From contig NZ_KN234756.1 in NCBI RefSeq assembly GCF_000764025.1, forward strand, positions 1 through 64,000: a stretch of 64,000 bases of DNA, in the 5' to 3' direction. This document shows positions 8,677-25,762 of the stretch, piece after piece. The notes beneath the pieces are model-generated. The model did no database searches and was not told the origin of the DNA. It saw only the letters and a program-made list of their open reading frames with translations. The position numbers and the translations under genes are program-made. The stretch comes from Pseudohaliea rubra DSM 19751. GTDB taxonomy: Bacteria > Pseudomonadota > Gammaproteobacteria > Pseudomonadales > Halieaceae. How positions within the stretch are numbered: position 1 is the stretch's first letter; every line of letters begins with the position of its first letter.

Positions 8677-9465
8677 CTAGCAGTTCTTCCACACGGGTTC
8701 ACGCTTCTCGAGGAAGGCATTGACCCCCTCGCGCTGGTCTTCGGTAGAGAACAGCTCGACGAAGCGCTCGCGCTCCCCGACGAGGCCGTCAGCCAGAGCC
8801 TTGTCGCGGGCCGAGTGAATGAGTGCCTTGCAGTGGGCCACGGAGGTCGGGCTCTGCTGTGCGGCCTGCTCGGCGAGGGCGAGAGCCCGATCAAGCGCCT
8901 CCCCCGCCGGGACCACTTCCTCGGCCAGGCCGATACGCTCGGCGGTCGCCGCGTCGATGCGCTCGTTGCAGAGGATCATGCGCTTGGCCCAGCCCTCGCC
9001 CACCAGCCACGCCAGGCGCTGGGTGCCGCCGGCGCAGGGCAGCAGCCCGACGCGCGCCTCCGGCAGAGCGAGCTTCGCATTCTCGGCCACCACGCGCAGA
9101 TCGCAGGCCAGGGCGACCTCGAGGCCACCGCCCATGGCAAAGCCGTTGACGGCGGCGATGGACACCCCGCGAAAGTCCGCGAGAGCCTCGAAAGCCTCAC
9201 CGAAAAGGCGCCCCATCTCTTCCGCCACGGCCGTATCGCCGTCGGCGAAGAGCTTGAGATCGGCCCCGGCAGAGAAGAACTTGTCGCCGGCGCCGGTGAG
9301 CACCAGGGCGTACACGGCGTCGGCGGCGTTCAGCTCCGCGACCAGGTCGCGCAGCGCCGGCAGGCTCTCCGTGTCCCAGGTATTGGCCGCGGGGTTGTCG
9401 ATGGTGACCAGCGCGGTATGCCCGCGCAGCTCCACCTTGATCTTGTCGGATGTGCTGTTGATCAT
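8677..9465 (-). CDS. Enoyl-CoA hydratase
   Basis: This 262-residue crotonase is expected to hydrate methacrylyl-CoA to 3-hydroxyisobutyryl-CoA. Oxyanion-hole motifs are FSAGADLKLF and NGFAMGGGLEVALACD, and the region LPEARVGLLPCAGGTQRL carries the usual catalytic glutamate. Its ATG overlaps the stop of the acyl-CoA dehydrogenase gene (ATGA), so the two are translationally coupled. Crotonases are hard to tell apart by substrate; the operon makes methacrylyl-CoA most likely. Confidence 0.9.
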   Translation of the reverse strand: MINSTSDKIKVELRGHTALVTIDNPAANTWDTESLPALRDLVAELNAADAVYALVLTGAGDKFFSAGADLKLFADGDTAVAEEMGRLFGEAFEALADFRGVSIAAVNGFAMGGGLEVALACDLRVVAENAKLALPEARVGLLPCAGGTQRLAWLVGEGWAKRMILCNERIDAATAERIGLAEEVVPAGEALDRALALAEQAAQQSPTSVAHCKALIHSARDKALADGLVGERERFVELFSTEDQREGVNAFLEKREPVWKNC

Positions 9466-10622
9466 CGGATCACCTCCAGGGCACCTTCCATGAGTAAGCG
9501 TCGCGCGACGATCACGCGCATGATCTCGTTCGTGCCCTCGAGGATCTGATGCACCCGGGTGTCGCGCACGTAGCGCTCGAGGGGGTATTCGCGAATGTAG
9601 CCGTAGCCACCGAAGAGTTGCAGGGCATCATTGCAGACCTGAAAACCCGCGTCGGTGGCAAAGCGCTTGGCCATGGCGCAGTAGGTCGTCGCCTGCGGAT
9701 CGCCGACGTCGAGCTTGCTCGCCGCCAGGCGGATCATCTGCCGCGCCGCCACCAGCTCCGTGAGCATATCGGCAAGCTTGAACTGCGTGCCCTGGAATTC
9801 GGCAATTGCGTTGCCGAACTGCCGCCGTTCCTGCACGTAGGCCGCCGCTTCCTTCAGCGCCTGCTGCGCCGTACCGACGCTGCAGGTGGCGATGTTGATG
9901 CGGCCGCCGTCGAGGCCCTCCATGGCAATGGAGAAGCCCTGCCCCTCCTCGCCGAGGCGGTTCTCAACGGGCACGCGTACGTTGTCGAAGCTGACCATGC
10001 GCGTGGGCTGGGCGTTCCAGCCCATTTTCTCTTCTTTTTTACCGTAGCTGATCCCGGGCGCGTCCGCGGGGACCAGCAGTGCGGAGATGCCCTTAGGGCC
10101 CGGGTCTCCGGTACGCAGCATGACGACCAGCACATCTGTATCGCCGGCGCCGGAGATGAACACCTTGGCGCCGTTGATCACATAGTCGTCGCCATCGCGC
10201 TCGGCGCGGGTGCGCAGCGACGCGGCATCCGAGCCGGCACCCGGCTCGGTCAGGCAGTAGGAGGCGAGCTTTGTGCCGGCGACCAGCTCCGGGCACCAGG
10301 CCTCGATGACCGCCTCCCGGCAGTACTTGCCGATCATGCTTGTGGCCATATTGTGGATCGTCAGGAAGGCCGTCGTGGTGGTGCAGCCGCGGGCCAGCTC
10401 CTCGACGATGAGGCTGGCGTCGAGCCGGCCCATACCGAGGCCGCCGGCAGCTTCCGGGGTGTACATGCCCATAAAGCCCAGCTCGCCGGCGGCGGCAAGG
10501 GCATCCTTGGGGAAAATCGCCTCCGCATCCCAGCGCGCGGCGTTCGGGGCGAGGACATCCTCGGCGAAGGCGCGCGCACTGTCCGCGAAGGCCTGCTGCT
10601 CTGCAGACAGGGTGAAATCCAT
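9462..10622 (-). CDS. Isobutyryl-CoA-type acyl-CoA dehydrogenase
   Basis: This 386-residue FAD enzyme should oxidise isobutyryl-CoA to methacrylyl-CoA, passing electrons to ETF. The signature CLTEPGAGSDAASLRTRAE and the C-terminal ILEGTNEIMRV are clear; the glutamate near residue 362 is at the usual catalytic position of short branched-chain dehydrogenases. It sits directly after mmsA and before the hydratase, the position of isobutyryl-CoA dehydrogenase in valine operons. No etf genes are in the window. Confidence 0.92.
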   Translation of the reverse strand: MDFTLSAEQQAFADSARAFAEDVLAPNAARWDAEAIFPKDALAAAGELGFMGMYTPEAAGGLGMGRLDASLIVEELARGCTTTTAFLTIHNMATSMIGKYCREAVIEAWCPELVAGTKLASYCLTEPGAGSDAASLRTRAERDGDDYVINGAKVFISGAGDTDVLVVMLRTGDPGPKGISALLVPADAPGISYGKKEEKMGWNAQPTRMVSFDNVRVPVENRLGEEGQGFSIAMEGLDGGRINIATCSVGTAQQALKEAAAYVQERRQFGNAIAEFQGTQFKLADMLTELVAARQMIRLAASKLDVGDPQATTYCAMAKRFATDAGFQVCNDALQLFGGYGYIREYPLERYVRDTRVHQILEGTNEIMRVIVARRLLMEGALEVIR

Positions 10623-10647
10623 GGCTGTTCTCCTCGCCGATGCCGGC

Positions 10648-12150
10648 CTAGCGGAGGTTGATGCTCATGTTCGGCTCGCTGCCGGCGGCTTCCGGCTCGG
10701 CGTGGCGCCAGCGGGCGGTGATCGTCTTGGTCTCCGTGTAGAAGCGGACCGCCTGCTTGCCGTAGGGGTGCAGGTCGCCGCGGAAGGAGCCACGCCAGCC
10801 GCTGAAGTTGAAGAAGGGCAGCGGCACCGGGATCGGGATATTGATGCCCACGTTGCCCACGGCCACCTCATGCTGGAACTTCCGGGCCGCGCCGCCAGAG
10901 GCGGTGAAGATCGACGTACCGTTACCGACTTCCAGCGAATTGATCTGCGCGATAGCCGCCTCAAGGGTGTCGGCCTGCATACAGCACAGCACCGGACCGA
11001 AGATCTCTTCCTTATAAATGGTCATGTCCGGGGTGACATCGCTGAAGATCGTCGGGCCGATCCAGTTGCCGTCCGGGAAGCCCTCCACGACGCAGTCGGA
11101 GCCATCCAGCATGCAGGTGGCGCCCTCCTCCTTGCCCTTGGCAATGAGGCTCAGTACCCGATCGCGGGCTGCGGTGGAAATGAGCGGACCATAGGCGGCG
11201 CCGGCATCATCCCATGCACCCGGGCGGGCCTTGCCGACGCGCTCGGCCAGTTCCGGGATCCAGCTGGCCGCCTCACCGACAAAGAGCGCCACGGAAATGG
11301 CCATACAGCGCTGACCCGCGGCGCCTACGGAAGCGCCCACCAGCGCGTTGAGCACACCGTCCTTGTCGGCATCGGGCATGATGACCATATGGTTCTTGGC
11401 GCCCATCATGCACTGGACACGCTTGCCTGCTGCCGTCGCGTTGCGATAGATGATCTCGCCGACCCGGGAGGAGCCCACGAAAGACACGGCCTGGATGTCC
11501 GGGTGCGCCAGCAGTTGATCCACCTGCGGCACACTGCCGTGTACGACATTGAGCACGCCTTCGGGGGCGCCGGCCTCGGCAAACAGCTCGGCGAGGCGCA
11601 TGGGCGTCAGCGGGACCTGCTCCGAGGGCTTGAGGACGAAGGTGTTGCCGCAGGCAATAGCCAGGGGGAACATCCACAGCGGCAGCATGGCCGGAAAGTT
11701 GAACGGCGTAATACCCAGGCAGACACCCAGAGGCTGGGTAAGGCTGTAGCTGTCGATACCGCCGGCGACATTCTCAACCGTCTCGCCCATGAGCAGAGAG
11801 GGGATGTTGGCCGCGTGCTCGACCACCTCGATGCCACGCCAGACGTCACCCTTGGCGTCCTCAAAGGTCTTGCCCGTGTCGCGGGCGAGGAGCTCGCCGA
11901 GCTCGTCGTGGTGCGCCTTCAACAGAGCCTGATAACGCAACATAAGGCGGGCGCGCTCCGGCACGGGTACCTCGCGCCAGCTCTGGAAAGCCTCCTTGGC
12001 CGCGGCGACGGCGACGTCAACCTCGTCTGCGGTGGCCAGGGGCACTTCCGTGAGCACGGCCTGGGTAGCCGGATCGAGTACCGGCAGCCACTCCTGGCTG
12101 CTGCTCTGGATGAACTCGCCATTGATGAACAGCGGAACCTGGGCAGGCAT
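10648..12150 (-). CDS. mmsA: Methylmalonate-semialdehyde dehydrogenase (CoA-acylating)
   Basis: This 500-residue aldehyde dehydrogenase converts methylmalonate semialdehyde with CoA and NAD to propionyl-CoA, the last step of valine breakdown. The catalytic cysteine is C282 in [10 protein letters not shown], and the NAD-binding FVGSSRVG lies near residues 224-231. The MmsA-typical segments [19 protein letters not shown] and [17 protein letters not shown] are present. The start at 12150 is preferred because GAGGT stands just upstream; an ATG 12 nt earlier is possible. First gene of the operon, reading away from the divergent AraC gene. Confidence 0.96.
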
Positions 12151-12278
12151 GGTGTACCTCATCATCTGTTATCACTTAAGGACCTCGAACGGTATCACCC
12201 GCCGACGCCAGCTGCCATTGACGAAATTGTGAATGACATGGACGATATTGCGGCAATGGGAATTATACCGCACAGGCT
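12151..12278. promoter_or_regulatory. Divergent control region between mmsA and the AraC gene
   Basis: This 128-nt AT-richer gap separates two divergent transcripts and must hold both promoters and probably the AraC-type binding sites. I see no clear repeat of an AraC site; assignment rests on position only. Confidence 0.5.
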
Positions 12279-15639: not shown

Positions 15640-16404
15640 CTAGATGGTGATGCCACCATCGACGAGGATCGTCTCCCCGTTGATGTAGCTGCCGGCCTCG
15701 GAGACGAGGAGCAGCACCGTGCCGGCCATCTCCTGCGGCTCCGCGTGCCTGCCCATGGGGATCTGCTCCATGGCGCGCTTGTAGATCTCCTCGTGCTCAA
15801 AAAGAGCACCGGCGAACTTCGTCTTCGTCAGCCCCGGCAGCAGTGCGTTGCAGCGGATGCCCAGGGGGCCGCACTCCTTGGCGAAGACCCGGGTCATATT
15901 CACCACCGCGGCCTTGGTGATGGAATAGATGCCCTGCAGGGGGCCGGGCTGAATGGCGTTGATGGACGCCGTATTCACAATCGCACCGCCACCCTGTTCC
16001 TTCATCAGCTTGCCGGCCTCGACGGACATGAAGAAATAGCCGCGGATGTTCACATCGACAGTCTTCTGGAAGGCACCCAAGTCCGTATCGAGCACGTGAC
16101 CGAAATAGGGGTTGGTCGCAGCGTTGTTAACCAGGATATCGAGACGGCCATGGTCCTCACGGATCCGTGCCATGGTGCCGTGGATATCGTCCATGTTGCC
16201 GACGTGGCAGGCCATGGCCTCGGCGCTCCCGCCGGCCGCACGGATACTCGCTGCAACCGCCTCGCAGTCCGGCGCCTTGCGGCTGGACACAATCACGTGG
16301 GCCCCCTGCTCGGCGAGCAGGCGGGCGATGGCTTCGCCGATACCGCGGCTGGCACCGCTGACGAAAGCAATTTTTCCGTTCAGGTCAAAAAGGTGGGTAG
16401 CCAT
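15640..16404 (-). CDS. Short-chain dehydrogenase/reductase
   Basis: This 254-residue NAD(P)-dependent oxidoreductase shows the classical SDR features: the cofactor loop SGASRGIGEAIARLL near residues 16-30, NNAATNPYFG in place of NNAG, the catalytic Ser in IVNTASINA, and Tyr/Lys in YSITKAAVV. An AGAGGAG ribosome site precedes the ATG. It ends the six-gene minus-strand run that begins with the acyl-CoA ligase at 21060. It may dehydrogenate a hydroxyl or hydroxyacyl intermediate of the cluster substrate; this is inference from position. Confidence 0.85.
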   Translation of the reverse strand: MATHLFDLNGKIAFVSGASRGIGEAIARLLAEQGAHVIVSSRKAPDCEAVAASIRAAGGSAEAMACHVGNMDDIHGTMARIREDHGRLDILVNNAATNPYFGHVLDTDLGAFQKTVDVNIRGYFFMSVEAGKLMKEQGGGAIVNTASINAIQPGPLQGIYSITKAAVVNMTRVFAKECGPLGIRCNALLPGLTKTKFAGALFEHEEIYKRAMEQIPMGRHAEPQEMAGTVLLLVSEAGSYINGETILVDGGITI

Positions 16405-16428
16405 AGGGGAAACGCTCCTCTTGTGAAT

Positions 16429-17601
16429 TTATACGGGATGCGGATGGTCGGCCTCGCGCGGCTGCACAAGGGCCCAGGAGAAATAAACCGCCACCACCAC
16501 CGCGAAGCACAGCCACGCGGTGCGATAGCCGAAATGGGTGAGCAACAGGCCGGCCAGCAGCGGCCCGAGCACCCGGCCCCAGGCCGAGGCTGAGGCGGCC
16601 GCGCCCATCATGCGCCCGCGCAGGGCCGCGGGGGTGCGCCGGCTGGTGAGCGACTGCAGCACCGGCATGCACAAGGTGGCACCGGTGAGTCCGACAAAGA
16701 CCGAGGCGAGCATGCCGACCATGCCGTTCGCGGCAGCAGCAATGCCGAGGCCCGCGAGGAACAGGCCGACGCAGACCCGCAGCAGCGGGATTTCCCCGGC
16801 GATGCGCACCAACGGGCCCATGAGCAGCCCCTGGCTGGTCGCCATGATCGCGCCCTGGATACCGAAGACGACACCCACCTCGTGCGGGCCCCAGGCCAGC
16901 AGGTCGCCCACCCAGAGGGGGAACAGGTAGGTAAAGGCGCTGACGCTCGACGTGTGCAGCACGAACTGGATCAGCAGCAGGCGGCTGCGGGTGCGTCCGA
17001 GCAGGGCCCAGGTGCTCTCCGCCGGCGCCGCGTCGCGCTCCGCCCGCTGCTCAGCCCGGTGCTTCGGCGGCAGGCTCTCACGCAGGAAGAACGCCGCGGC
17101 GGCCACGGCGAGCAGGGACATACCACCGGCAAAGAGGCAGGGAATGAGAAAGCTGCCATCGGCCGAGAGCAGGCCGCCGATCACCGGACCCAGTACCAGA
17201 CCGAGGCCAAAGGCGGCCCCGATGAGGCCCATGCCGCGCGCGCGGTCGCCACTGCCCGTCAGGTCCGCCATCATCGCCGAGGCGACGCCGAGGTTGCCCG
17301 CCATAAGCCCGGCGCCGGCCCGGGCGGCGTAGATCATCCACAGCTCGCTGGCCATGGCGAGAAGGCCATAGCAGGCGGCAGCCCCGGTCATGCAGATCAT
17401 GATCACCGGCTTGCGGCCGATGCGGTCCGACAGGCGACCCCAGAAAGGCCCGCAAAGCCCGGCGCAGACCGCATAGCTGGCGATGATCATGGCGATATCG
17501 AGCTTATCGGCGCCAAGGGTGGGCGACAAGAAGGGCAGGATCGGAATGACGATCCCGAAGCCGATCATGTCGAGGAGGACGACTCCGAAGAGCAGCGGCA
17601 C
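16429..17601 (-). CDS. MFS transporter (DHA1-like)
   Basis: This 390-residue inner-membrane protein has about twelve hydrophobic segments. Motif A-like GPFWGRLSDRIGRKPVIM lies in the first cytoplasmic loop, and MIGFGIVIPILPFLSP in helix 1 is typical of drug:H+ antiporter type 1 proteins. The start is GTG at 17601; an in-frame TGA directly upstream rules out a longer protein. It lies 22 nt after ubiX inside the catabolic cluster, so it may import the substrate or export a metabolite. A drug-efflux role cannot be excluded. Confidence 0.82.
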   Translation of the reverse strand: MPLLFGVVLLDMIGFGIVIPILPFLSPTLGADKLDIAMIIASYAVCAGLCGPFWGRLSDRIGRKPVIMICMTGAAACYGLLAMASELWMIYAARAGAGLMAGNLGVASAMMADLTGSGDRARGMGLIGAAFGLGLVLGPVIGGLLSADGSFLIPCLFAGGMSLLAVAAAAFFLRESLPPKHRAEQRAERDAAPAESTWALLGRTRSRLLLIQFVLHTSSVSAFTYLFPLWVGDLLAWGPHEVGVVFGIQGAIMATSQGLLMGPLVRIAGEIPLLRVCVGLFLAGLGIAAAANGMVGMLASVFVGLTGATLCMPVLQSLTSRRTPAALRGRMMGAAASASAWGRVLGPLLAGLLLTHFGYRTAWLCFAVVVAVYFSWALVQPREADHPHPV

Positions 17602-17623
17602 TCAGCTGGCCCCGGCCGGCCGG

Positions 17624-18196
17624 TCAGTCACCGGTCCAGCGCCGGACCTCGTCGCTGTGCAGGCCGAAGAGATCCAGGGCACGGCCGGCACTCTGCGTCA
17701 CGATCTCATCAACGCTGGCGGGACGGGTGTAAAAGGCGGGCACGGGCGGAGCCAGCACCGCGCCCATTTCGGCGAGGCGGGTCATGGTTTGCAGGTGACC
17801 CAGGTGCAGCGGTGTCTCGCGCACCATAAGCACGAGCCGGCGCCGCTCCTTGAGGACCACGTCGGCGGCGCGGGTCAGCAGCGTCGAAGTAACGCCGCTG
17901 GCAATCTCCGACATGGTGCGAATGGAGCAGGGGGCCACGAGCATGCCCGCGGTGAGGAAGGAACCGCTGGCGATGGCGGCGCCCACATGCTTCACCGGGT
18001 AGCAGACATCGGCGAGGGCCTGCACCTCCTTCGTGGTCAGCTCGAGTTCTTCCCGCAGGGTAAGCTCCGCCGACTTGCTCATGACCAGGTGCGTTTCCAC
18101 ACCGGCGGCGCGGAGCAGCTCGAGGGCGCGCACGCCAAGGGCGATCCCGGAGGCGCCGCTGATGCCGACGATGAGGCGGCGGGGAGCGTCAATCAC
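17624..18196 (-). CDS. ubiX: Flavin prenyltransferase UbiX
   Basis: This 190-residue enzyme attaches a dimethylallyl group to FMN, making the prenylated FMN cofactor of UbiD-type decarboxylases. The N-terminal flavin motif GISGASGIALG, the central PCSIRTMSEIASG, and the C-terminal RETPLHLGHLQTM and PPVPAFYTRP match UbiX closely. It overlaps the preceding NTF2-like gene by 8 nt. No ubiD-like gene lies in the window. It could be the general UbiX for ubiquinone synthesis or serve a decarboxylase of this catabolic cluster encoded elsewhere. Confidence 0.93.
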   Translation of the reverse strand: MIDAPRRLIVGISGASGIALGVRALELLRAAGVETHLVMSKSAELTLREELELTTKEVQALADVCYPVKHVGAAIASGSFLTAGMLVAPCSIRTMSEIASGVTSTLLTRAADVVLKERRRLVLMVRETPLHLGHLQTMTRLAEMGAVLAPPVPAFYTRPASVDEIVTQSAGRALDLFGLHSDEVRRWTGD

Positions 18197-18572
18197 CGAG
18201 CTGCTCCAGCATCGCGCGCATGCGCTCGTGGAGCAGGTTCACCGCCTTGAGGGGCCGTACCATTACCTTGAACTCGCTGATCAGCCCCTCACGGTTCACG
18301 GTAATGATATCGACTCCGTTGATCTCGATACCGTCGAGCATGCAGCTGAATTCGAGCACCGCGTGGGGCGCAGCAACCACTTCCTTTAGGTAGCGGAAAC
18401 TGTCATTGAACACGTGCATGGCGCCGGCAAGATAGAGCGCTGTGCGCTCCCGGCCGACCTGCGGCGTGTGCACCACCGGGGAGTGAAAAACGCAGTCTTC
18501 GGCGAGAAGCTGCCCGAGCCGGGACGGGTCCCGGGCCTCGAGGATGTCATGCCATGTGGAGATTACCTGCAT
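18189..18572 (-). CDS. NTF2-like / SnoaL-type protein
   Basis: This 127-residue protein has the size and pattern of the NTF2/SnoaL cone fold: an initial helix (STWHDILEARDPSRLGQLL), EDCVFHSPV, and later strands ending in the VMVRPLKAVN segment. Such proteins bind small hydrophobic ligands or act as isomerases or hydratases. The start at 18572 gives the normal family length; the ribosome site is weak, and a start 39 nt upstream is possible. It is translationally coupled to ubiX. Function here unknown. Confidence 0.72.
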   Translation of the reverse strand: MQVISTWHDILEARDPSRLGQLLAEDCVFHSPVVHTPQVGRERTALYLAGAMHVFNDSFRYLKEVVAAPHAVLEFSCMLDGIEINGVDIITVNREGLISEFKVMVRPLKAVNLLHERMRAMLEQLGD

Positions 18573-18641
18573 CGCCGCGCGCCTGCCGGAAAGAGCGCGC
18601 AAGCATGGCACAGGGCCCGCGCCAGCTCAAACAGGAGAGCC

Positions 18642-19505
18642 TCAGGGCAGGCCTGCGAGGAAGGCGTCGATGGCGCCGAGCGCCTCGGGCTCCGTGAGCA
18701 TCGGCGCATGACCGACCCGCGGCACCTCCACCGCCGTGAGATCCGGATCGTGTTCGGCCATGCGCAGCACGCAGTCTGCGGCGAGAATGTCCGACAGCTC
18801 GCCGCGGACGACCAGCATGGGTTTGGCTGCCGCCGCGTCGAAAACGGGCCAGAGATCCGGCGGTACTGCCCCCGTTTCCTCCGGGTCGACCATGCCCTCG
18901 GCGATGGCCGGATCGTAGACGAGAACAGGGACGCCGTCCTGCTCAACGTAGAGATTACGGGTAAAGGCGAGCCATTCGTCGTCCGAGTAGTCAGGGAACG
19001 CCGCACCGTTGATCTCCCGGGTCTTCGCCACCGCCTCATCCCAGCTCGTGACCGGCGGGTTCTTGCCGACGTAGCGCTGAATGCGCGCAAGACCCACCGG
19101 GTCGATCTCCGGGCCGATGTCGTTGATGACCATGCCGGCAAAGCGCGCCGGCGCCTGCGCCGCCATGAGGAAACTCATGAGGCCGCCCATGGAGGTGCCG
19201 ATGAGCGCGACGCGATCGAGGCCGAGGCCGTCCAGAAGCAGGAACATGTCCTGCACGTAGGTCAGCGGCGTGTAGTTGGCGGGCACCGGGTCCCACGCGG
19301 AGCGGCCGCGGCCGCGCTGCTCGGCGACGATCACCCGCCGTTCGGTCGCCAGGTGATCGGCCAGGCCGGCGAAATCGGCGGAATTGCGCGATAGCCCGTG
19401 CATGCACAGCACCGGCAGGGCACCGGCAGCGGGCCCCGGGTAATCCCGGGCGTAGAGGCGCAGGCCATCGGCGCTGTCGTACCAGTGATCGCGATAGTCA
19501 GCCAT
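18642..19505 (-). CDS. Alpha/beta hydrolase
   Basis: This 287-residue protein has the alpha/beta-hydrolase fold. The oxyanion segment is LCMHGLSRNSADF, the EQRGRGRSAW strand follows, and the nucleophile elbow is GTSMGG. The late acid is probably in VRGELSDILA and the histidine in PRVGHAPML. The chosen ATG at 19505 overlaps the end of the acyl-CoA ligase gene by 8 nt; a longer reading would run deep into that gene. Probable roles are ester, lactone or ring-cleavage product hydrolysis, but the substrate is not evident. Confidence 0.85.
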   Translation of the reverse strand: MADYRDHWYDSADGLRLYARDYPGPAAGALPVLCMHGLSRNSADFAGLADHLATERRVIVAEQRGRGRSAWDPVPANYTPLTYVQDMFLLLDGLGLDRVALIGTSMGGLMSFLMAAQAPARFAGMVINDIGPEIDPVGLARIQRYVGKNPPVTSWDEAVAKTREINGAAFPDYSDDEWLAFTRNLYVEQDGVPVLVYDPAIAEGMVDPEETGAVPPDLWPVFDAAAAKPMLVVRGELSDILAADCVLRMAEHDPDLTAVEVPRVGHAPMLTEPEALGAIDAFLAGLP

Positions 19506-21060
19506 AGCGACGGTCTCCGTAGCGCTCGCGCAGTTCGCGCTTGAGCATCTTGCCGTTGGGGTTGCGCGGCAGTTCATCCACCAGCAGGAGGTCCGCGAGG
19601 CGCTGCTGTCGGCCGAGCTCACCGTTGGCCCAGGCCAGCAGCTCCCCGGCGTCGACCGCAGGGTTTGCCGGCACCACCAACGCCAGCGGCGTCTCGCCCC
19701 AGCGCTCGCTGGGCGCTGCAATCACGCCGGCATCCTCGATGCCCGGGTGAGTGACCAGCACCGCCTCGATATCCTGCGGATAGATGTTCTGCCCGCCCGA
19801 CAGGATCATATCTTTCTTGCGATCGACGATGAACAGGAAGCCCTCATCGTCGACATAGCCGATATCGCCGGAGCGCAGCCAGACCCGACCGGCGGCGTCG
19901 ACGTAGCGGGCCTCCGCATTGGCCTGGGGCCGGTTCCAGTAGCCAGGCATGGTGATGCGTCCGCGGGAGACGATCTCCCCCGCCTCTCCGGCGGCCCGGG
20001 GGCGGTCGTCGTCATCGATAATAGCGATATCCGTCCCGATCAGCGGACGGCCGACGGAATCCCAGCGCCCTTCGGCGTCCTCCGGTTCCAGCGTGGTGAT
20101 GATGCCTTCGGTGAGCCCGTAGAGCTCGACGATACCGCAGGGAAAAGCGGCAAAAATGTCGCGCTTCAGACCCTCCCGGAGCGGCGAGCCGCAGCTCATC
20201 ATGGCGTGCATCCCCGAGAGGTTCCGCGGGCGTTCACGCTGCTCGGCGACCGCCCGCTGGAACTGGATCGGCACCATGGCCGTGTGGGTGATGCCGTCCT
20301 GCTCGACCGCATCGAGGAAGGCCCCGGCGTCGAAGCGCTCGTGCACCACCAGCGTCCCGCCCGCGAGCAGCGTGGTGAGCATGGCCACCCAGGAGATATT
20401 CGAGTAGAGACCGATGGTCAGCAGGGTCCGCGCAGCGCCGTGGTAGCGCAGGGCGATGGCCAGGTCATAGGCCCAGTCGCGCCGCCCCCGGTGGGTATGC
20501 AGGATACCCTTGGGCAGCCCGGTGGTGCCGGAGCTATAGATAATGTTAAGGGGAGCGTCCGGGTCGAGGGCGAGCGCCTGCGCCGGCAGCGTCGCGGGCT
20601 GGCCCGCGCAGAGCCCATCAATCGTCTCCCAGCCATCGCCGCCGGGACCACTGCTGACCCAGAGCACTACGCTGTCCGGCAGACGCTCCCGCAGAGCGGC
20701 AAGCCGGGGTTGCAGGTCTGCAGTGACCACCAGGGCGCGGATGCCCGCATCGCCGAGCATGGCGACCACCGCCTCGTCGTTCACAGACAGGTTCAGCGGC
20801 ACGGACACAGCGCCGGCGGCGAGGGTCCCGAACAGCGTCTGCACCATGGCCAGGCCGTTGCTCATGAGCACACCGACGCGGTCGCCGGGAGCGATGCCGC
20901 GGCTCAACAGGCCGTGGGCGAAGCGGTGATTGGCCGCGCAGAAGGCGGCCCAGTCCAGGGTCTCACCCGCGCAGCAGACTGCCGGGCGCGGGCCCCGCCA
21001 CTTGCCGTGCAGGGCCAGGATTTCCGGCAACAGCGGTGCCGGGGACGGAAAACGGTCCAC
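19498..21060 (-). CDS. AMP-forming acyl-CoA ligase
   Basis: This 520-residue ANL-family enzyme activates a carboxylic acid with ATP and CoA. The P-loop-like motif IIYSSGTTGLPKGILHTH, the ELYGLTEG motif, the hinge SGDIGYVDDEGFLFIVDRKKDMI and the C-terminal lysine motif LPRNPNGKMLKREL are intact. It heads the minus-strand run that continues into the hydrolase, NTF2-like, UbiX, MFS and SDR genes. It is separated by 59 nt and a hairpin from the TonB receptor gene. Substrate unknown; the context suggests a large or aromatic acid. Confidence 0.9.
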   Translation of the reverse strand: MDRFPSPAPLLPEILALHGKWRGPRPAVCCAGETLDWAAFCAANHRFAHGLLSRGIAPGDRVGVLMSNGLAMVQTLFGTLAAGAVSVPLNLSVNDEAVVAMLGDAGIRALVVTADLQPRLAALRERLPDSVVLWVSSGPGGDGWETIDGLCAGQPATLPAQALALDPDAPLNIIYSSGTTGLPKGILHTHRGRRDWAYDLAIALRYHGAARTLLTIGLYSNISWVAMLTTLLAGGTLVVHERFDAGAFLDAVEQDGITHTAMVPIQFQRAVAEQRERPRNLSGMHAMMSCGSPLREGLKRDIFAAFPCGIVELYGLTEGIITTLEPEDAEGRWDSVGRPLIGTDIAIIDDDDRPRAAGEAGEIVSRGRITMPGYWNRPQANAEARYVDAAGRVWLRSGDIGYVDDEGFLFIVDRKKDMILSGGQNIYPQDIEAVLVTHPGIEDAGVIAAPSERWGETPLALVVPANPAVDAGELLAWANGELGRQQRLADLLLVDELPRNPNGKMLKRELRERYGDRRYG

Positions 21061-21119: not shown

Positions 21120-23387
21120 TCAGAAGCGGTACTCGACCGTGGCCGTCCAGGTCCGCGGCGGCCCGAAGAACACCGTGGTGTTGTCCTCGAGACCGAGGGC
21201 CGAGGGGCAGCCGGAGGTGGCGGCAAAGCCGAAGCAGTAGCCGGCGGTACGGTACTCCTCGTCGGCGAGGTTCTTGCCATGCAGGCCCACGAGCCAGGCA
21301 TCGTCCGCCGACAGCCAGGTAATGCTGGCATTGAACAGGCTGTAGGCCTCCTGATCGATGAACTCGTTGGCGATCTCGAACTGGGTGATGTCGCCCTTGT
21401 AGGACCAGTTACCCGACAGGCGCAGGTCGCCACCAGCGAGCGGCACATCGTAGTTGAGGGCGAGGAAGGCCATCTCCTCCGGCGTATTCTGGATCGCGCG
21501 CTGATCGGCGACGTTCTGCCCGGCGACGATCCACTCCTTGATCTCGGCGTCGAGCAGGCTCAGGGCATACTGGGCGCTGAAGTTTTCCGTGAACAGGAAG
21601 CTGCCCTCAACCTCGATACCGCTGATCTCCGACTCGCCGGCATTGGTCACCGTGCCGACAAAGCTGTCGTTGACGCCATCACCGTCGCCGTCCACGCCGA
21701 TGGAGCCCGGGATCTGCATATCCTGATACTCGCTGTAGAACAGGGCGATGTTGGTGAGCGCCCGACCGCCCCACCAGGTGGCCTTGAGGCCCGCCTCCCA
21801 GGAGTGCAGTTCCTCGGCGTCGAAGCCCTGCTCCACCTCCGGCGACAGCAGATTGGCGCCGCGGGGGTCGAAGCTGCCGGCCTTCCAGCCCTTGCTGTAG
21901 CCGGCGTAGACGGTAGCGTCCTCGGTCAGCCGGTAGCTGATATTCAAGCGCGGTGAGGTGTCGTCATAGGTCTGGTCGGCCTCGTAGTCCGAGGTCGCCG
22001 CGAGCAGGATAGCCGAGTCGTTGCCCAGGAACGGCGAGCCGGTGCCGAGATAGTTGCCGCGGAAGATGTCCGCCCGCCGTTCGTCCTCCGTGTAGCGCAC
22101 GCCCACGGCGATGGAGAGGCGCTCCGTCAGTTCGTAGGTGACATCGGCGAAGACGGACCAGGCCTCCGTTTCCACCACGCCACCGGTATAAGCGGTGATG
22201 CCGCCCGGCACGAGCTGACCCAGGACCACGTCGAAGTCGTTGGAGGCCTCTGCGTCGAGGTAGTAGTAACCCAGCACGGCATTGACCCGATCGGTATTCC
22301 AGAGCAGCTGGAACTCCTGACTGAACTGCTCGTTGTCATAGACCACCGGCGCGTCGAAGTCGGGCACCGCCAGGCCATCGAAATCGATGACGGACTCCGT
22401 GTAGTCCTCCCGGTCTGCGGTGATGGAGCGCAGGGTAAGGGTGTCGCTGAGCTGCCAGTCGACGGAGACCATCCAGCCCTCGTTCTCGACGCTGTTATTG
22501 CCGTTAATACCGGCGGTGGTCGGGAGCACGGCGGCGCCGGCGGTGGTGTCAAAGACATCCCCCAGCACCGGCGCGCCGCTGGCCGCGCCCGGAAAGGGTC
22601 GCCAGCCGGCGACGGGGTTGGAGTCGTCTTCCGTCTTGTCATAGGCCAGGCGCATCAGCAGTCGCTCGCTGGGCTCGAACTCGGCGGACAGGCGGTAACC
22701 GAGGATATCCTTGTTGTACTGATCCTCACCGGTGGTGAAATTATCGCCGAACCCGTCGCGCTGGAAGGATGCGACGGTTCCGCCAAGGCGGAAGCTGTCG
22801 CTCACAGGCACGGACACGGTGCCGACAAAATCCATCTGGTCGTAGGCCCCGTAGGAGGCGCGCACCCGGCCCTCGAATTCGTCGGAGAGGCGCCGGGTCA
22901 CGTACTTGATCGCGCCGCCGACCGCGTTGCGGCCGTAGAGCGTGCCCTGGGGGCCGCGCAGGACTTCGACGCGCTCCACATCGTAGAGGTCGAGCATGGC
23001 GCCCTGGGGCCGTGCGAGGTAGACGTCATCGAGGTACAGGGCCACGCCCTGCTCGAAGCCCGCCAGCGGGTCCTGCTGGCCGACACCGCGGATGAAGGCC
23101 GTGAGCGTGGTGTTGGTGGCGCGGGTGGGCTCAAGGGTGACGCTGGGCACGGACTGGGCGAGCTCGGAGATATCCGAGAAACCGCGCAGGGCGAGTTCCT
23201 GGCCGGTGAGCGCCGTCACCGCGATGGGCACATCCTGCAGGCTCTCCTCCCGGCGCCGCGCCGTCACAACAACCTCTTCAACGGTCAGGGACCGCTCCTG
23301 GGCGACGGCGGCAAGGCCCGGGAATGCCAGCGCCGAACTCGCAGCGATGGCGGCAACAAGGGGATGACGAACGTGGGTACGTTGCAT
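21120..23387 (-). CDS. TonB-dependent outer-membrane receptor
   Basis: This 755-residue protein has a signal peptide (HPLVAAIAASSALAFPGLAAVAQ), a plug domain with a TonB-box-like start (VEEVVVTARRREESLQDVP) and a long beta-barrel ending in the aromatic TWTATVEYRF. The sequence style (GFSDISELAQSVPSVTLEPTR) is that of the large marine and sphingomonad receptor family, not of siderophore-specific types. The start at 23387 follows AAAAGG; an in-frame GTG 9 nt earlier is possible. Two TTCAAC-N4-GTTGAA palindromes cover its predicted promoter. It probably imports the cluster substrate, whose identity is unknown. Confidence 0.92.
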   Translation of the reverse strand: MQRTHVRHPLVAAIAASSALAFPGLAAVAQERSLTVEEVVVTARRREESLQDVPIAVTALTGQELALRGFSDISELAQSVPSVTLEPTRATNTTLTAFIRGVGQQDPLAGFEQGVALYLDDVYLARPQGAMLDLYDVERVEVLRGPQGTLYGRNAVGGAIKYVTRRLSDEFEGRVRASYGAYDQMDFVGTVSVPVSDSFRLGGTVASFQRDGFGDNFTTGEDQYNKDILGYRLSAEFEPSERLLMRLAYDKTEDDSNPVAGWRPFPGAASGAPVLGDVFDTTAGAAVLPTTAGINGNNSVENEGWMVSVDWQLSDTLTLRSITADREDYTESVIDFDGLAVPDFDAPVVYDNEQFSQEFQLLWNTDRVNAVLGYYYLDAEASNDFDVVLGQLVPGGITAYTGGVVETEAWSVFADVTYELTERLSIAVGVRYTEDERRADIFRGNYLGTGSPFLGNDSAILLAATSDYEADQTYDDTSPRLNISYRLTEDATVYAGYSKGWKAGSFDPRGANLLSPEVEQGFDAEELHSWEAGLKATWWGGRALTNIALFYSEYQDMQIPGSIGVDGDGDGVNDSFVGTVTNAGESEISGIEVEGSFLFTENFSAQYALSLLDAEIKEWIVAGQNVADQRAIQNTPEEMAFLALNYDVPLAGGDLRLSGNWSYKGDITQFEIANEFIDQEAYSLFNASITWLSADDAWLVGLHGKNLADEEYRTAGYCFGFAATSGCPSALGLEDNTTVFFGPPRTWTATVEYRF

Positions 23388-23443
23388 GGCGGACACCTTT
23401 TCATTCGTTATGAGTTATTGGACGCCACCTGTCGGCGACGCTT

Positions 23444-23459
23444 TTCAACAAGTGTTGAA
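23444..23459 (-). promoter_or_regulatory. TetR-type operator copy, start of receptor transcript
   Basis: TTCAAC-AAGT-GTTGAA is a perfect 6+6 dyad. Its centre lies exactly 30 bp from that of the next copy, and it would cover roughly +2 to +17 of the receptor transcript. Confidence 0.7.
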
Positions 23460-23467
23460 CAGCGCTG

Positions 23468-23496
23468 AGGCTATTCAACGGATGTTGAATTGTCAA
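23468..23496 (-). promoter_or_regulatory. Receptor promoter with operator filling the spacer
   Basis: On the minus strand a perfect TTGACA (-35) and TAGCCT (-10) are separated by 17 nt. The whole spacer is the dyad TTCAAC-N4-GTTGAA with an extra A/T pair. A bound repressor would block RNA polymerase. The element overlaps the last codons of the upstream symporter gene. Confidence 0.7.
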
Positions 23497-24922
23497 GCGC
23501 CCGGCGGGGGCGGGTGGCCGCGAGCCCCGTCAGGCCAAAGGCCAGGGCCGCCAGGATCCCCCAGGTGGCGGACACGGCAGGGTTTTCGATCCCGAAACCC
23601 AGGTTGAGCAGCAGATGCCCGCCGAGGCCGATGCCGGCAGCACCGGTCACCACCCAGAGCGGAATATGCCGGCGCACCAGCACACCGAAGAGCACTGGCA
23701 CCAGAGAGGCAGCAGCGAGGCCGTAGACGCCCTTCTGCGCAAACAGACCGATAAGCGGCGGCGGCTCCCAGGCCAGCGCCAGGCCGATCGCGCCAACAGC
23801 CACCAGCACCCAGCGCGAGAGCGCCAGCCCGCTCCCGTCGGAGCCGGTGAGCGGGCGGACGATATCAGTCACCACCATGGCCGAAAGGGCGACGAGGATG
23901 CCGTCGAGGGTACTCATACCCGCGGCGAGCAGGGTGATGAAGATGAACACGAGCACGTACTCGCCCCAGGGCGAGCTGCCGAACTCGTGCAGCAGGTATT
24001 CGCGCACCACCGTGTCCTGTGCGTCTATCTCCAGCCCCGCAAGCCGGGCGTAGAAGCCGATCATGAGCATGAGCGTAAACAGGGCGCCCACCACCACCGT
24101 GGTGCCGATGAACAGGCCGATGTCGCGCTCGCTGCGCAGGTAGAGAACCTTGGTGAGAATATGCGGCTGCAGCATGAGCGCGAAGGTGATGACAAAGCCG
24201 CTGACGAACACGGAGAAGAAATCGAAATAGAGACGGCTGGACGGATTGTAGGCGGCCGCATAGTCCGCGCCGATGCGCGCCAGGGCCCCGGCCGCATCAC
24301 CACCGAAATAGCGATAGCCCTGCAGGAACAGCACCGCGGTAACCGCCAGCATCATTACGCCCTGCAGGGTGTTCGTATAGGCATGCGCATAGGTACCCCC
24401 CATAAGCACATAGGAGAAGACGAACAGCAGCACCCCCACCAGCGCCGTCTTCTGGTCCACCGGGAAGAGCCCGGTCACCAGCAGACTGCAGCCCACGAGA
24501 ATCAGCACCACAAAGGTGATGGACAGCAGATTGATGAAGGCGAAGAAGAGACTGAAGCCCCGGTGGTTGTAACGATAGAAGATCCACTGGGGAATGGTGA
24601 GGGCCGCATGGGTTTCGCCGAGGCGCAGGAAGCCGCGGGTAAGCACCAGGAAGGCACTGAGGATACCGAGGGAGCCGGCAACGCCGAAGTGCAGGTAGGC
24701 GGAAAGTCCGTGCTGGTAGACGAAGCCCGGGTTGATGACAAAGGTCGCCGTGGAGGCGATCGAGGCGGCCAGGGTGATGCCCACTACTACCGGGTGCATG
24801 TCCTTGTTGCCGATGGAGAAGCCGGCGACGCTGGCGGTGCGGCGCATACCGACGACCGAGAGGCCGTAAACGAGCAGCGCGTAAGCGCCCACCAGGAGGT
24901 ACTTGAAGAGTTCCGGAGTCAT
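23471..24922 (-). CDS. Sodium:solute symporter family protein
   Basis: This 483-residue inner-membrane protein has about thirteen helices and belongs to the SSS family, which drives uptake of organic solutes with sodium. Typical segments are FSIGNKDMHPVVVGITLAAS near residue 35, GFLRLGETHAALTIPQW, and the helix TLLAAGMSTLDGILVALSA. Its last codons encode the promoter and operator of the next gene (TonB receptor). An operator also covers its own promoter, so symporter and receptor are likely co-regulated to carry one substrate across both membranes. Substrate unknown; monocarboxylates and related acids are common for the family. Confidence 0.88.
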   Translation of the reverse strand: MTPELFKYLLVGAYALLVYGLSVVGMRRTASVAGFSIGNKDMHPVVVGITLAASIASTATFVINPGFVYQHGLSAYLHFGVAGSLGILSAFLVLTRGFLRLGETHAALTIPQWIFYRYNHRGFSLFFAFINLLSITFVVLILVGCSLLVTGLFPVDQKTALVGVLLFVFSYVLMGGTYAHAYTNTLQGVMMLAVTAVLFLQGYRYFGGDAAGALARIGADYAAAYNPSSRLYFDFFSVFVSGFVITFALMLQPHILTKVLYLRSERDIGLFIGTTVVVGALFTLMLMIGFYARLAGLEIDAQDTVVREYLLHEFGSSPWGEYVLVFIFITLLAAGMSTLDGILVALSAMVVTDIVRPLTGSDGSGLALSRWVLVAVGAIGLALAWEPPPLIGLFAQKGVYGLAAASLVPVLFGVLVRRHIPLWVVTGAAGIGLGGHLLLNLGFGIENPAVSATWGILAALAFGLTGLAATRPRRALDNSTSVE

Positions 24923-24971
24923 GCCCCTCGTCCTTATCGTTATCGGTCGTTATCGTCTGCAGGGTCGCGGC

Positions 24972-25000
24972 AGCGTATTCAACGGTTGTTGAATTTGCAA
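24972..25000 (-). promoter_or_regulatory. Symporter promoter with operator in the spacer
   Basis: On the minus strand TTGCAA (-35) and TACGCT (-10) are 17 nt apart, and the spacer is again TTCAAC-N4-GTTGAA with an added A/T pair. It lies 50 nt upstream of the symporter start codon. Confidence 0.7.
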
Positions 25001-25035
25001 GCCGTGGTTGGCGCTGGCACACGCGCAAGACATCC

Positions 25036-25050
25036 AGGGGTGACACCCCT
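25036..25050. repeat. Short inverted repeat between symporter and tetR promoters
   Basis: AGGGGTG and CACCCCT form a perfect 7-bp dyad around one base, midway between the two divergent promoters. It could be a site for a second regulator. Confidence 0.5.
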
Positions 25051-25085
25051 TGCACCCGGAAGCGCGCTACTCAACAATCGTTGAA
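25050..25085 (+). promoter_or_regulatory. tetR promoter with overlapping operator
   Basis: TTGCAC (-35) and AACAAT (-10) are separated by 17 nt. The dyad (C)TCAAC-AATC-GTTGA(A) at 25070-25085 covers the -10 region, one outer base differing from the other copies. This suggests autoregulation of the TetR gene. Confidence 0.6.
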
Positions 25086-25108: not shown

Positions 25109-25762
25109 ATGGAAGACCAGACCCGCCCGCGGAGAGAACGCATCCTCGACGCCGCCGAGGAACTGTTCGCGCTGCACGGCTACGACGGCGTGACCCTGCG
25201 CCAGATCGCCCGGCGCGCGGGGGTGGACGTGGCCCTGGCCAACTACCACTTCGGCAGGAAGCTGGACCTGTTCCAGGCAGTCTTCGAGCGCCGGGCGGCC
25301 TTCCTCAACAATGCCCGGCGGGAGGCCCTGCACCGCTGCCAGGGCGAGGCCGGGGAGACCGGCCCGACCCTGGAGCAGATCATCGAGGCTTTTCTGCGGC
25401 CCCTGGAGCTTGCCCAGGAGACCGGCGACACGGGCTGGCGCCACTACCTGGCGCTCATCGCCTACATCAACAACAGCCCCTACTGGGGGCCGAAAATGAT
25501 GTCTCATCTATTCGACGCGCTGGTGCAGGAATTCATCGAGGCCCTGGGCAAGGCCCTGCCCGACGCGCGCCGGGAAGACCTGTACTGGTGCTACCAGAAC
25601 CTCTCCGGTGCGCTGACGCTGACCCTGGCGCAGACACGGCGGATCGACAATCTCTCCGGCGGCCTGTGCCGCTCGGCGGACCTGCAGGCCGCCTACGATC
25701 ACATGATTCCTTTTGTCGCCGCGGGCTTCCGCAAGGTCTGCAGCAGCAGGGCGGAGTTGTAA
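25109..25762 (+). CDS. TetR-family transcriptional regulator
   Basis: This 217-residue regulator has the TetR DNA-binding domain at the N-terminus: ERILDAAEELFALHGYDGVT, then LRQIARRAGVDVALANYHFG with the conserved YHFG recognition helix end. The rest is the helical ligand-binding and dimer domain. The ATG at 25109 follows GAGAG; a GTG 18 nt earlier is possible. It is divergent from the symporter and receptor genes, and palindromes of the size TetR dimers bind lie in all three promoters, so it most likely represses all three and itself. The ligand may be the acid or its CoA ester. Confidence 0.9.
   Translation: MEDQTRPRRERILDAAEELFALHGYDGVTLRQIARRAGVDVALANYHFGRKLDLFQAVFERRAAFLNNARREALHRCQGEAGETGPTLEQIIEAFLRPLELAQETGDTGWRHYLALIAYINNSPYWGPKMMSHLFDALVQEFIEALGKALPDARREDLYWCYQNLSGALTLTLAQTRRIDNLSGGLCRSADLQAAYDHMIPFVAAGFRKVCSSRAEL

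Follow-up and report, generated by a model that had tools for sequence, protein, structure and literature searches.

PsrA of Pseudomonas aeruginosa (PA3006, PDB entry 2fbq) binds sites of the form G/CAAAC(N2-4)GTTTG/C according to the accessible portion of PMC10304680, and PsrA is reported to regulate itself. PsrA regulons are described in PMC5343134 and PMC3223726, and the accessible text of these two papers does not contain the term hydroxybutyrate. The hbtABC system of Ruegeria pomeroyi was in 2023 called the only confirmed bacterial system for uptake of 3-hydroxybutyrate (3HB), a compound proposed to be a highly available marine substrate (both statements from the accessible part of PMC10130141).

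The locus described here lies in the window, by which we mean the whole 64,000-nucleotide stretch of Pseudohaliea rubra DSM 19751 that was analysed. Based on its operators, promoter geometry, conservation, co-occurrence and gene content, all of which can be read directly from the sequences, we believe it very probable that the locus is an autoregulated TetR regulon built on one operator palindrome. Local TetR repressors with operators in promoter spacers are of a known kind; the regulon, the operator and the gene set, found across two bacterial classes, are new as far as our literature searches reach. Those searches covered the motif, PsrA-like regulators with TonB receptors, and TonB-dependent uptake of 3HB oligomers or polyesters, with subscription papers mostly outside them, and we did not recognise the regulon among the matches listed.

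Genes, operators and promoters of the window locus

The TetR-family repressor is encoded on the plus strand (25109-25762, 217 aa) and scores 123 bits with Pfam TetR_C_30 (PF17939) and 58 bits with TetR_N (PF00440). Four further genes are on the minus strand: a sodium:solute symporter family carrier (23471-24922; Pfam SSF 100.7 bits, every NCBIfam model below its cutoff), a TonB-dependent receptor with plug and barrel (21120-23396; PF00593 152 bits, PF07715 74 bits; the probable start, by eye, is the ATG at 23387), an AMP-forming acyl-CoA ligase 3' of the receptor (19498-21060; PF00501 243 bits), and an alpha/beta hydrolase (18642-19505, ATG start by eye; PF00561 67 bits). The ligase belongs to a broad acyl-CoA family and falls below each NCBIfam cutoff shown. 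In the hydrolase, the nucleophile Ser (GTSMGG) is kept in 30 of 30 aligned relatives, and the best solved relative, 3bwx, is named merely "alpha/beta hydrolase". Pfam detected no SusD family member among nine neighbouring proteins, which sets the locus apart from SusCD polysaccharide utilisation loci.

The UbiX, SnoaL, MFS and SDR genes located 3' of the hydrolase (15640-18611) were considered as part of the cassette and dropped on the evidence of one genome, G025. There, TetR residues 111-211 directly adjoin the hydrolase, whose match to the 315-residue query begins at residue 60 (L218 8328-9398), and the symporter, receptor and ligase are unmatched in the 19.9 kb fetched. SnoaL, UbiX and MFS are still present after this loss of the cassette, and we place these genes outside it. 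Elsewhere in the window, the minus strand has enoyl-CoA hydratase-, acyl-CoA dehydrogenase- and aldehyde dehydrogenase-like genes, recognised by eye (8677-12165).

A pattern search of the window found TTCAAC-N4-GTTGAA with zero mismatches at 23444, 23474 and 24978, and a fourth copy at 25070 with one mismatch, its first base being C, so all four positions given in the preliminary description are right, as is the single altered base. At up to two mismatches the window has 5 matches compared with 0.66 expected; all 100 shuffled sequences gave fewer than 5. In the host genome (3,212,303 bases in 86 contigs), the only matches at up to one mismatch are those four sites, every one of them at the locus, and a reversed control pattern has no match at the same threshold. 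The palindrome is thus far from widespread in the genome.

Read on the minus strand, the receptor promoter has the -35 TTGACA at 23491-23496 and the -10 TAGCCT at 23468-23473, and its 17-nt spacer (23490-23474) is made up of one A plus the 16-bp operator 1 (23474-23489). The symporter promoter is built the same way, with the -35 TTGCAA (24995-25000) and the -10 TACGCT (24972-24977) on either side of a 17-nt spacer (24994-24978) that holds the symporter-promoter operator (24978-24993). Both promoters are exactly as first described, and they are the only two places in the genome that match the complete module TTGACA-N-operator-TAnnnT with three mismatches or fewer. Operator 2 of the receptor promoter (23444-23459) starts 30 bp from operator 1, again as claimed, and judging by the -10 it would cover about +2 to +17. 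The TetR-proximal operator (25070-25085) had been said to lie over the -10 of the TetR gene. By eye we find a weaker candidate promoter there, TTGCAC at 25050-25055 followed after 17 nt by AACAAT at 25073-25078, and this possible -10 does fall inside the operator.

The receptor promoter overlaps the end of the symporter gene. The last symporter codons (LDNSTSVE and the stop codon TAG; window 23471-23500) contain the receptor -35 and operator 1, and the TAG doubles as the beginning of the receptor -10. Such an overlap is found in 4 of 44 receptor promoters, one of them that of the window.

Conservation in relatives

A protein-based scan gave 41 TetR loci, which, judging by the titles of their records, span the Halieaceae, other marine Gammaproteobacteria (Zhongshania, Dasania, Sessilibacter, Marinibactrum) and Alphaproteobacteria (Henriciella and other Hyphomonadaceae). 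The palindrome is conserved beside these orthologous TetR genes, with an exact operator in 36/41 loci, or 36/39 if we set aside two (L036, L041) that start within TetR at a contig end; the other three (L039, L043, L044) have none. In 75 of the 77 exact sites from the window and the protein-fetched loci, the centre is R-N-N-Y, which gives the operator consensus TTCAACRNNYGTTGAA. Nearly all of the operator-bearing proteins have the recognition helix VDVALA(N/S)YHFG in common. The helix differs in the L043 and L044 relatives, which have no operator, whereas L039 (Henriciella mobilis) has the same helix, yet no exact site anywhere in its genome. A perfect palindrome, TGCCGACACTGTCGGCA, is located upstream of the L044 TetR relative.

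Among 140 genomes of the family, 42 encode a TetR orthologue scoring 278 bits or more. Every one of them has exact sites, and 39 have at least two, compared with 5 of the 98 genomes below this level, which have one site each (Fisher 1.5e-30). Two of the 42 orthologues are partial: G138 begins at residue 23 at a contig end (locus L041) and G019 at residue 47. Weaker or partial TetR matches occur in 7 of the remaining 98 genomes, including G025, where the cassette is gone. The reversed pattern is found in 3/140 genomes. The count covers TetR and operator, and their co-occurrence may be plain cassette loss.

The TTGAC promoter context is missing at all five single sites (G063, G084, G088, G041, G123), and the site in G041 is inside a reading frame (a glutathione S-transferase by eye). 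Those in G063, G084 and G088 (L081-L083) are in one shared stretch, apaH by eye, a chance operator match of the kind that is a pitfall in motif scans.

In 390 genomes of the order, exact tandem operators occur at 21 places in 20 genomes, and the control pattern at none. A TonB receptor follows at 20 of the 21 places and a depolymerase at the remaining one, and we consider the exact tandem pair a usable marker for such receptors. In four genomes of genus g2 the tandem operators are apart from the TetR site, by 180 kb in G001 and on other contigs in G003, G004 and G005; in G001, G003 and G004, the three where the genes were read, the relocated pair is still located before a TonB receptor. The relocated receptor in three g2 genomes (L090 6096-9422, L093 2849-6290, L095) adjoins genes of the Amidohydro_3 family, scored in L090, and amidase-like genes recognised by eye.

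The promoter geometry is conserved as well. In 44 distinct receptor promoters, taken from the gammaproteobacterial loci reached or from the window's order, TTGAC ends two bases 5' of operator 1 in 43, and operator 1 is directly followed by T[AT]nnnT in 38 and by TAnnnT in 35, while TTGAC precedes operator 2 in none. The start-to-start spacing of the tandem operators is 32 nt in 22 of 46 promoters and ranges from 26 to 37 (30 in the window); these 46 include two depolymerase promoters and close relatives, and exclude duplicates, pairs near contig ends and the L032 pair, which could not be oriented. Symporter-side sites (50 contexts, including the TetR-proximal operator of the window) have the same geometry less strictly, with T in 68%, T in 70% and G in 62% at the TTG positions, and T in 68%, A in 78% and T in 60% at those of TAnnnT. 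This agreement across the Gammaproteobacteria supports the joint control of outer- and inner-membrane uptake proposed in the preliminary description.

In the two members of the genus, the window and G138, 23 bp separate the TetR-proximal operator from the TetR gene that follows it, and in G138 this operator is free of mismatches at the same position, with the symporter operator 3.3 kb away. In many relatives a single divergent operator seemingly serves both symporter and TetR, where the window and G138 have one for each. Both arrangements speak for the autoregulation that had been proposed. The Alphaproteobacteria have the same operator with a different promoter geometry: TTGAC is absent from its usual place in five receptor promoters (L040, L042, L045, L214, L215), and in the first four it is about 20 to 25 nt upstream of the operator, so that the operator would cover the -10 or the start region.

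The wider regulon and its probable cargo

A regulon of receptor, symporter and TetR, as first proposed, stands and is too narrow, since the full set also takes in the hydrolase, the CoA ligase and 3-hydroxybutyrate dehydrogenase, together with a depolymerase in two genomes. In G250 the operator is directly 5' of a ligase-hydrolase pair, with TTGAC not at its usual place, and in G113 such a pair replaces the symporter beside TetR, behind TTGCGT-operator-TACGAT. In five alphaproteobacterial loci (L035, L037, L040, L042, L045) the operator separates TetR from a divergently transcribed hydrolase gene, and in four of these an MFS-like carrier (by eye) follows the hydrolase. Seven loci have a codirectional 3-hydroxybutyrate dehydrogenase gene immediately after TetR (L023, L024, L025, which is on the same contig as L157, L033, L162, L163 and L164). 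Three of the seven score 350, 340 and 352 bits with TIGR01963 (cutoff 307), and the other four are 71 to 84% identical to a scored one.

Leaving aside loci cut before their flanks are visible and the split g2 loci, 7 loci have the dehydrogenase only, 21 the ligase only, 11 neither and none both (p 2.1e-3, a value that ignores kinship, which the alternation follows). The hydrolase is tied to the regulon in most loci of the ligase class and the dehydrogenase class alike. The 11 loci with neither gene are L026, L030, L032, L156 and L158, the alphaproteobacterial L035, L040, L042 and L045, and L034 and L161, where the receptor is present and no hydrolase was seen.

Behind a TTGACA-tandem pair, L021 and G048 each have a secreted short-chain polyhydroxyalkanoate depolymerase, scoring 171 and 174 bits with NF050058 (cutoff 150). 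By eye, the L021 promoter has an 18-nt spacer and the G048 promoter a poor -10. A flavin monooxygenase (FMO-like) is divergent from the depolymerase across the operator pair in G048 (L096 8841-10703), and in L021 and G014 a 3-ketoacyl reductase, not 3-hydroxybutyrate dehydrogenase, is linked to the operator. In G001, the receptor and ligase are followed by two more genes, one of them a scored acyl-CoA dehydrogenase, which are absent from this place in G004.

Some candidate links to the operator did not hold. We rejected the depolymerase as a regular target: of 67 depolymerase-like places listed in the family, 30 were fetched, and exact operators were present at one (G048), a two-mismatch match at two of the other 29, and none at 27. 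A link to acetoacetate, suggested by exact sites 5' of 3-oxoacid CoA-transferase genes in two Hyphomonadaceae (L212, L216), was rejected because the sites fall in the upstream reading frame and are not in TTGAC context. This context is likewise missing at a site 5' of dehydrogenase genes in L213.

Binding, repression, inducer, substrate and enzyme specificities are what we infer from these features, and the mechanism would run as follows. The TetR protein would act as a local, autoregulated switch through binding to TTCAACRNNYGTTGAA. Until an inducer appears, it would, as a dimer, occupy the spacers of the receptor and symporter promoters and the second operator near the receptor start, and from this geometry RNA polymerase would be unable to bind or to leave. 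With inducer present, the receptor, symporter, CoA ligase, hydrolase and tetR would be released together. The cargo would be 3HB oligomers, freed when depolymerases that are secreted, usually by other bacteria, break down polyhydroxybutyrate (PHB). Uptake would pass through the TonB receptor at the outer membrane and through the symporter, or a different carrier, at the inner one. The alpha/beta hydrolase would then cut the oligomers to 3HB, which would be a substrate either of 3-hydroxybutyrate dehydrogenase, for oxidation, or of the CoA ligase, for activation.

The dehydrogenase adjacent to TetR, the operator-fronted depolymerase in two genomes and the frequent hydrolase together point to 3HB oligomers. 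We also count for this substrate the top fold match of the repressor, NicR2, which regulates nicotine degradation and whose structure was solved with HSP, a small acid, as ligand. Counted against it are the window genome itself, which has no PF10503 esterase, no NF050058 match and a best TIGR01963 score of 181.6 compared with the cutoff of 307, the 11 loci with neither ligase nor dehydrogenase, the kinship behind the alternation of these two genes, the single place with exact operators among the 30 depolymerase-like ones fetched, the reductase of L021 and G014, and the monooxygenase of G048. The acyl-CoA dehydrogenase of G001 is a further point against it, because 3HB would not need one. Lacking both a depolymerase and a clear 3-hydroxybutyrate dehydrogenase, the host of the window would be a scavenger. 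Taken together, we give somewhat better than even chances to the whole statement, in which an autoregulated repressor controls the TonB-dependent capture of 3HB oligomers along with their import and hydrolysis. More tentative, and in our estimate a little short of even, is the proposal that this is a polyester utilisation locus of Gamma- and Alphaproteobacteria, often a depolymerase-free scavenger cassette, in which a receptor for 3HB oligomers and their import, hydrolysis and activation are co-regulated by a 3HB-sensing TetR.

The same TetR regulon could instead serve a different carboxylic acid (medium-chain, branched or cyclic), taken up as its ester or lactone. The alpha/beta hydrolase would release the acid, the CoA ligase would activate it, and beta-oxidation would follow. 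A steroid side-chain reading is retained solely within this alternative. The alternative as a whole would fit the low NCBIfam scores and broad family of the ligase, the acyl-CoA dehydrogenase gene after it in G001, the operator-tied reductases and the monooxygenase beside the extra operator pair in G048. Against it speak the 3-hydroxybutyrate dehydrogenase beside TetR in seven loci and the two operator-fronted secreted enzymes, both short-chain polyhydroxyalkanoate depolymerases above cutoff, and we consider it on the whole unlikely.

The repressor and its locus beside known systems

The AlphaFold model of the window TetR (pLDDT 91.8) is all-helical, and the protein has the N-terminal HTH and helical C-terminal domain of the TetR family, with palindromes at its own and neighbouring promoters. 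Among solved structures its fold ranks closest to NicR2 (PDB 5fgl, 5fhp; Z 21.7, rmsd 2.6 over 204 residues). NicR2, 25% identical to it, controls a catabolic pathway. The likeness is in fold only, and the neighbours scanned at the window locus include no nicotine genes. PsrA is third in fold (Z 18.2), after two NicR2 entries, and comes first by sequence among the solved structures (2fbq, 66 bits), PsrA and the window TetR being related over their full length.

This relationship would also suit a PsrA orthologue whose role is to repress fatty-acid degradation and which responds to long-chain fatty acids, with the receptor and symporter as side targets. The inner AAC-N4-GTT of the window operator fits the PsrA site as given in the accessible part of PMC10304680, but the outer bases are unlike it, and the genome has no such site beyond the locus at up to one mismatch. 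With the NCBIfam PsrA model (NF053516), TetR scores 97.4 bits against a cutoff of 300, and we consider orthology to PsrA improbable. No fatty-acid genes were found under the window operator.

Iron or siderophore uptake, with the receptor importing a chelate that TetR senses, is very improbable: siderophore receptors are among the best NCBIfam and PDB names for the receptor, below the NCBIfam cutoffs, but no siderophore gene is present among the nine neighbouring proteins scanned, and the partners of the receptor are a sodium symporter, a hydrolase and a CoA ligase or 3-hydroxybutyrate dehydrogenase. We can hardly credit that the palindromes are conserved promoter sequence bound by a protein other than TetR, as the overlap of the receptor operator with the symporter 3' end might suggest, given that the sites track the presence of TetR and are nearly missing where it is missing, are kept at a receptor 180 kb away, and have constant half-sites around a varying centre.

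Returning to an autoregulated regulon for 3HB oligomers, the locus can be compared by description with three systems. If the substrate reading is right, it has 3HB uptake in a marine bacterium in common with hbtABC, for which the accessible part of PMC10130141 does not mention a TonB receptor or TetR cassette. A TonB receptor for a lignin-derived aromatic (accessible part of PMC6874591) likewise imports a carbon source and not iron, as we propose here, and differs in its aromatic substrate. The PHB route through PhaZ, PhaY and Bdh has the depolymerase, oligomer hydrolase and 3-hydroxybutyrate dehydrogenase steps in common with the proposed one, and in the accessible part of PMC7830162 the terms TonB, TetR, symporter, uptake and transporter are absent. 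To that route the window locus would add a regulated import step at the outer membrane. If the substrate reading is true, this step would give the oligomers of a polyester that is both natural and industrial a route across that membrane.
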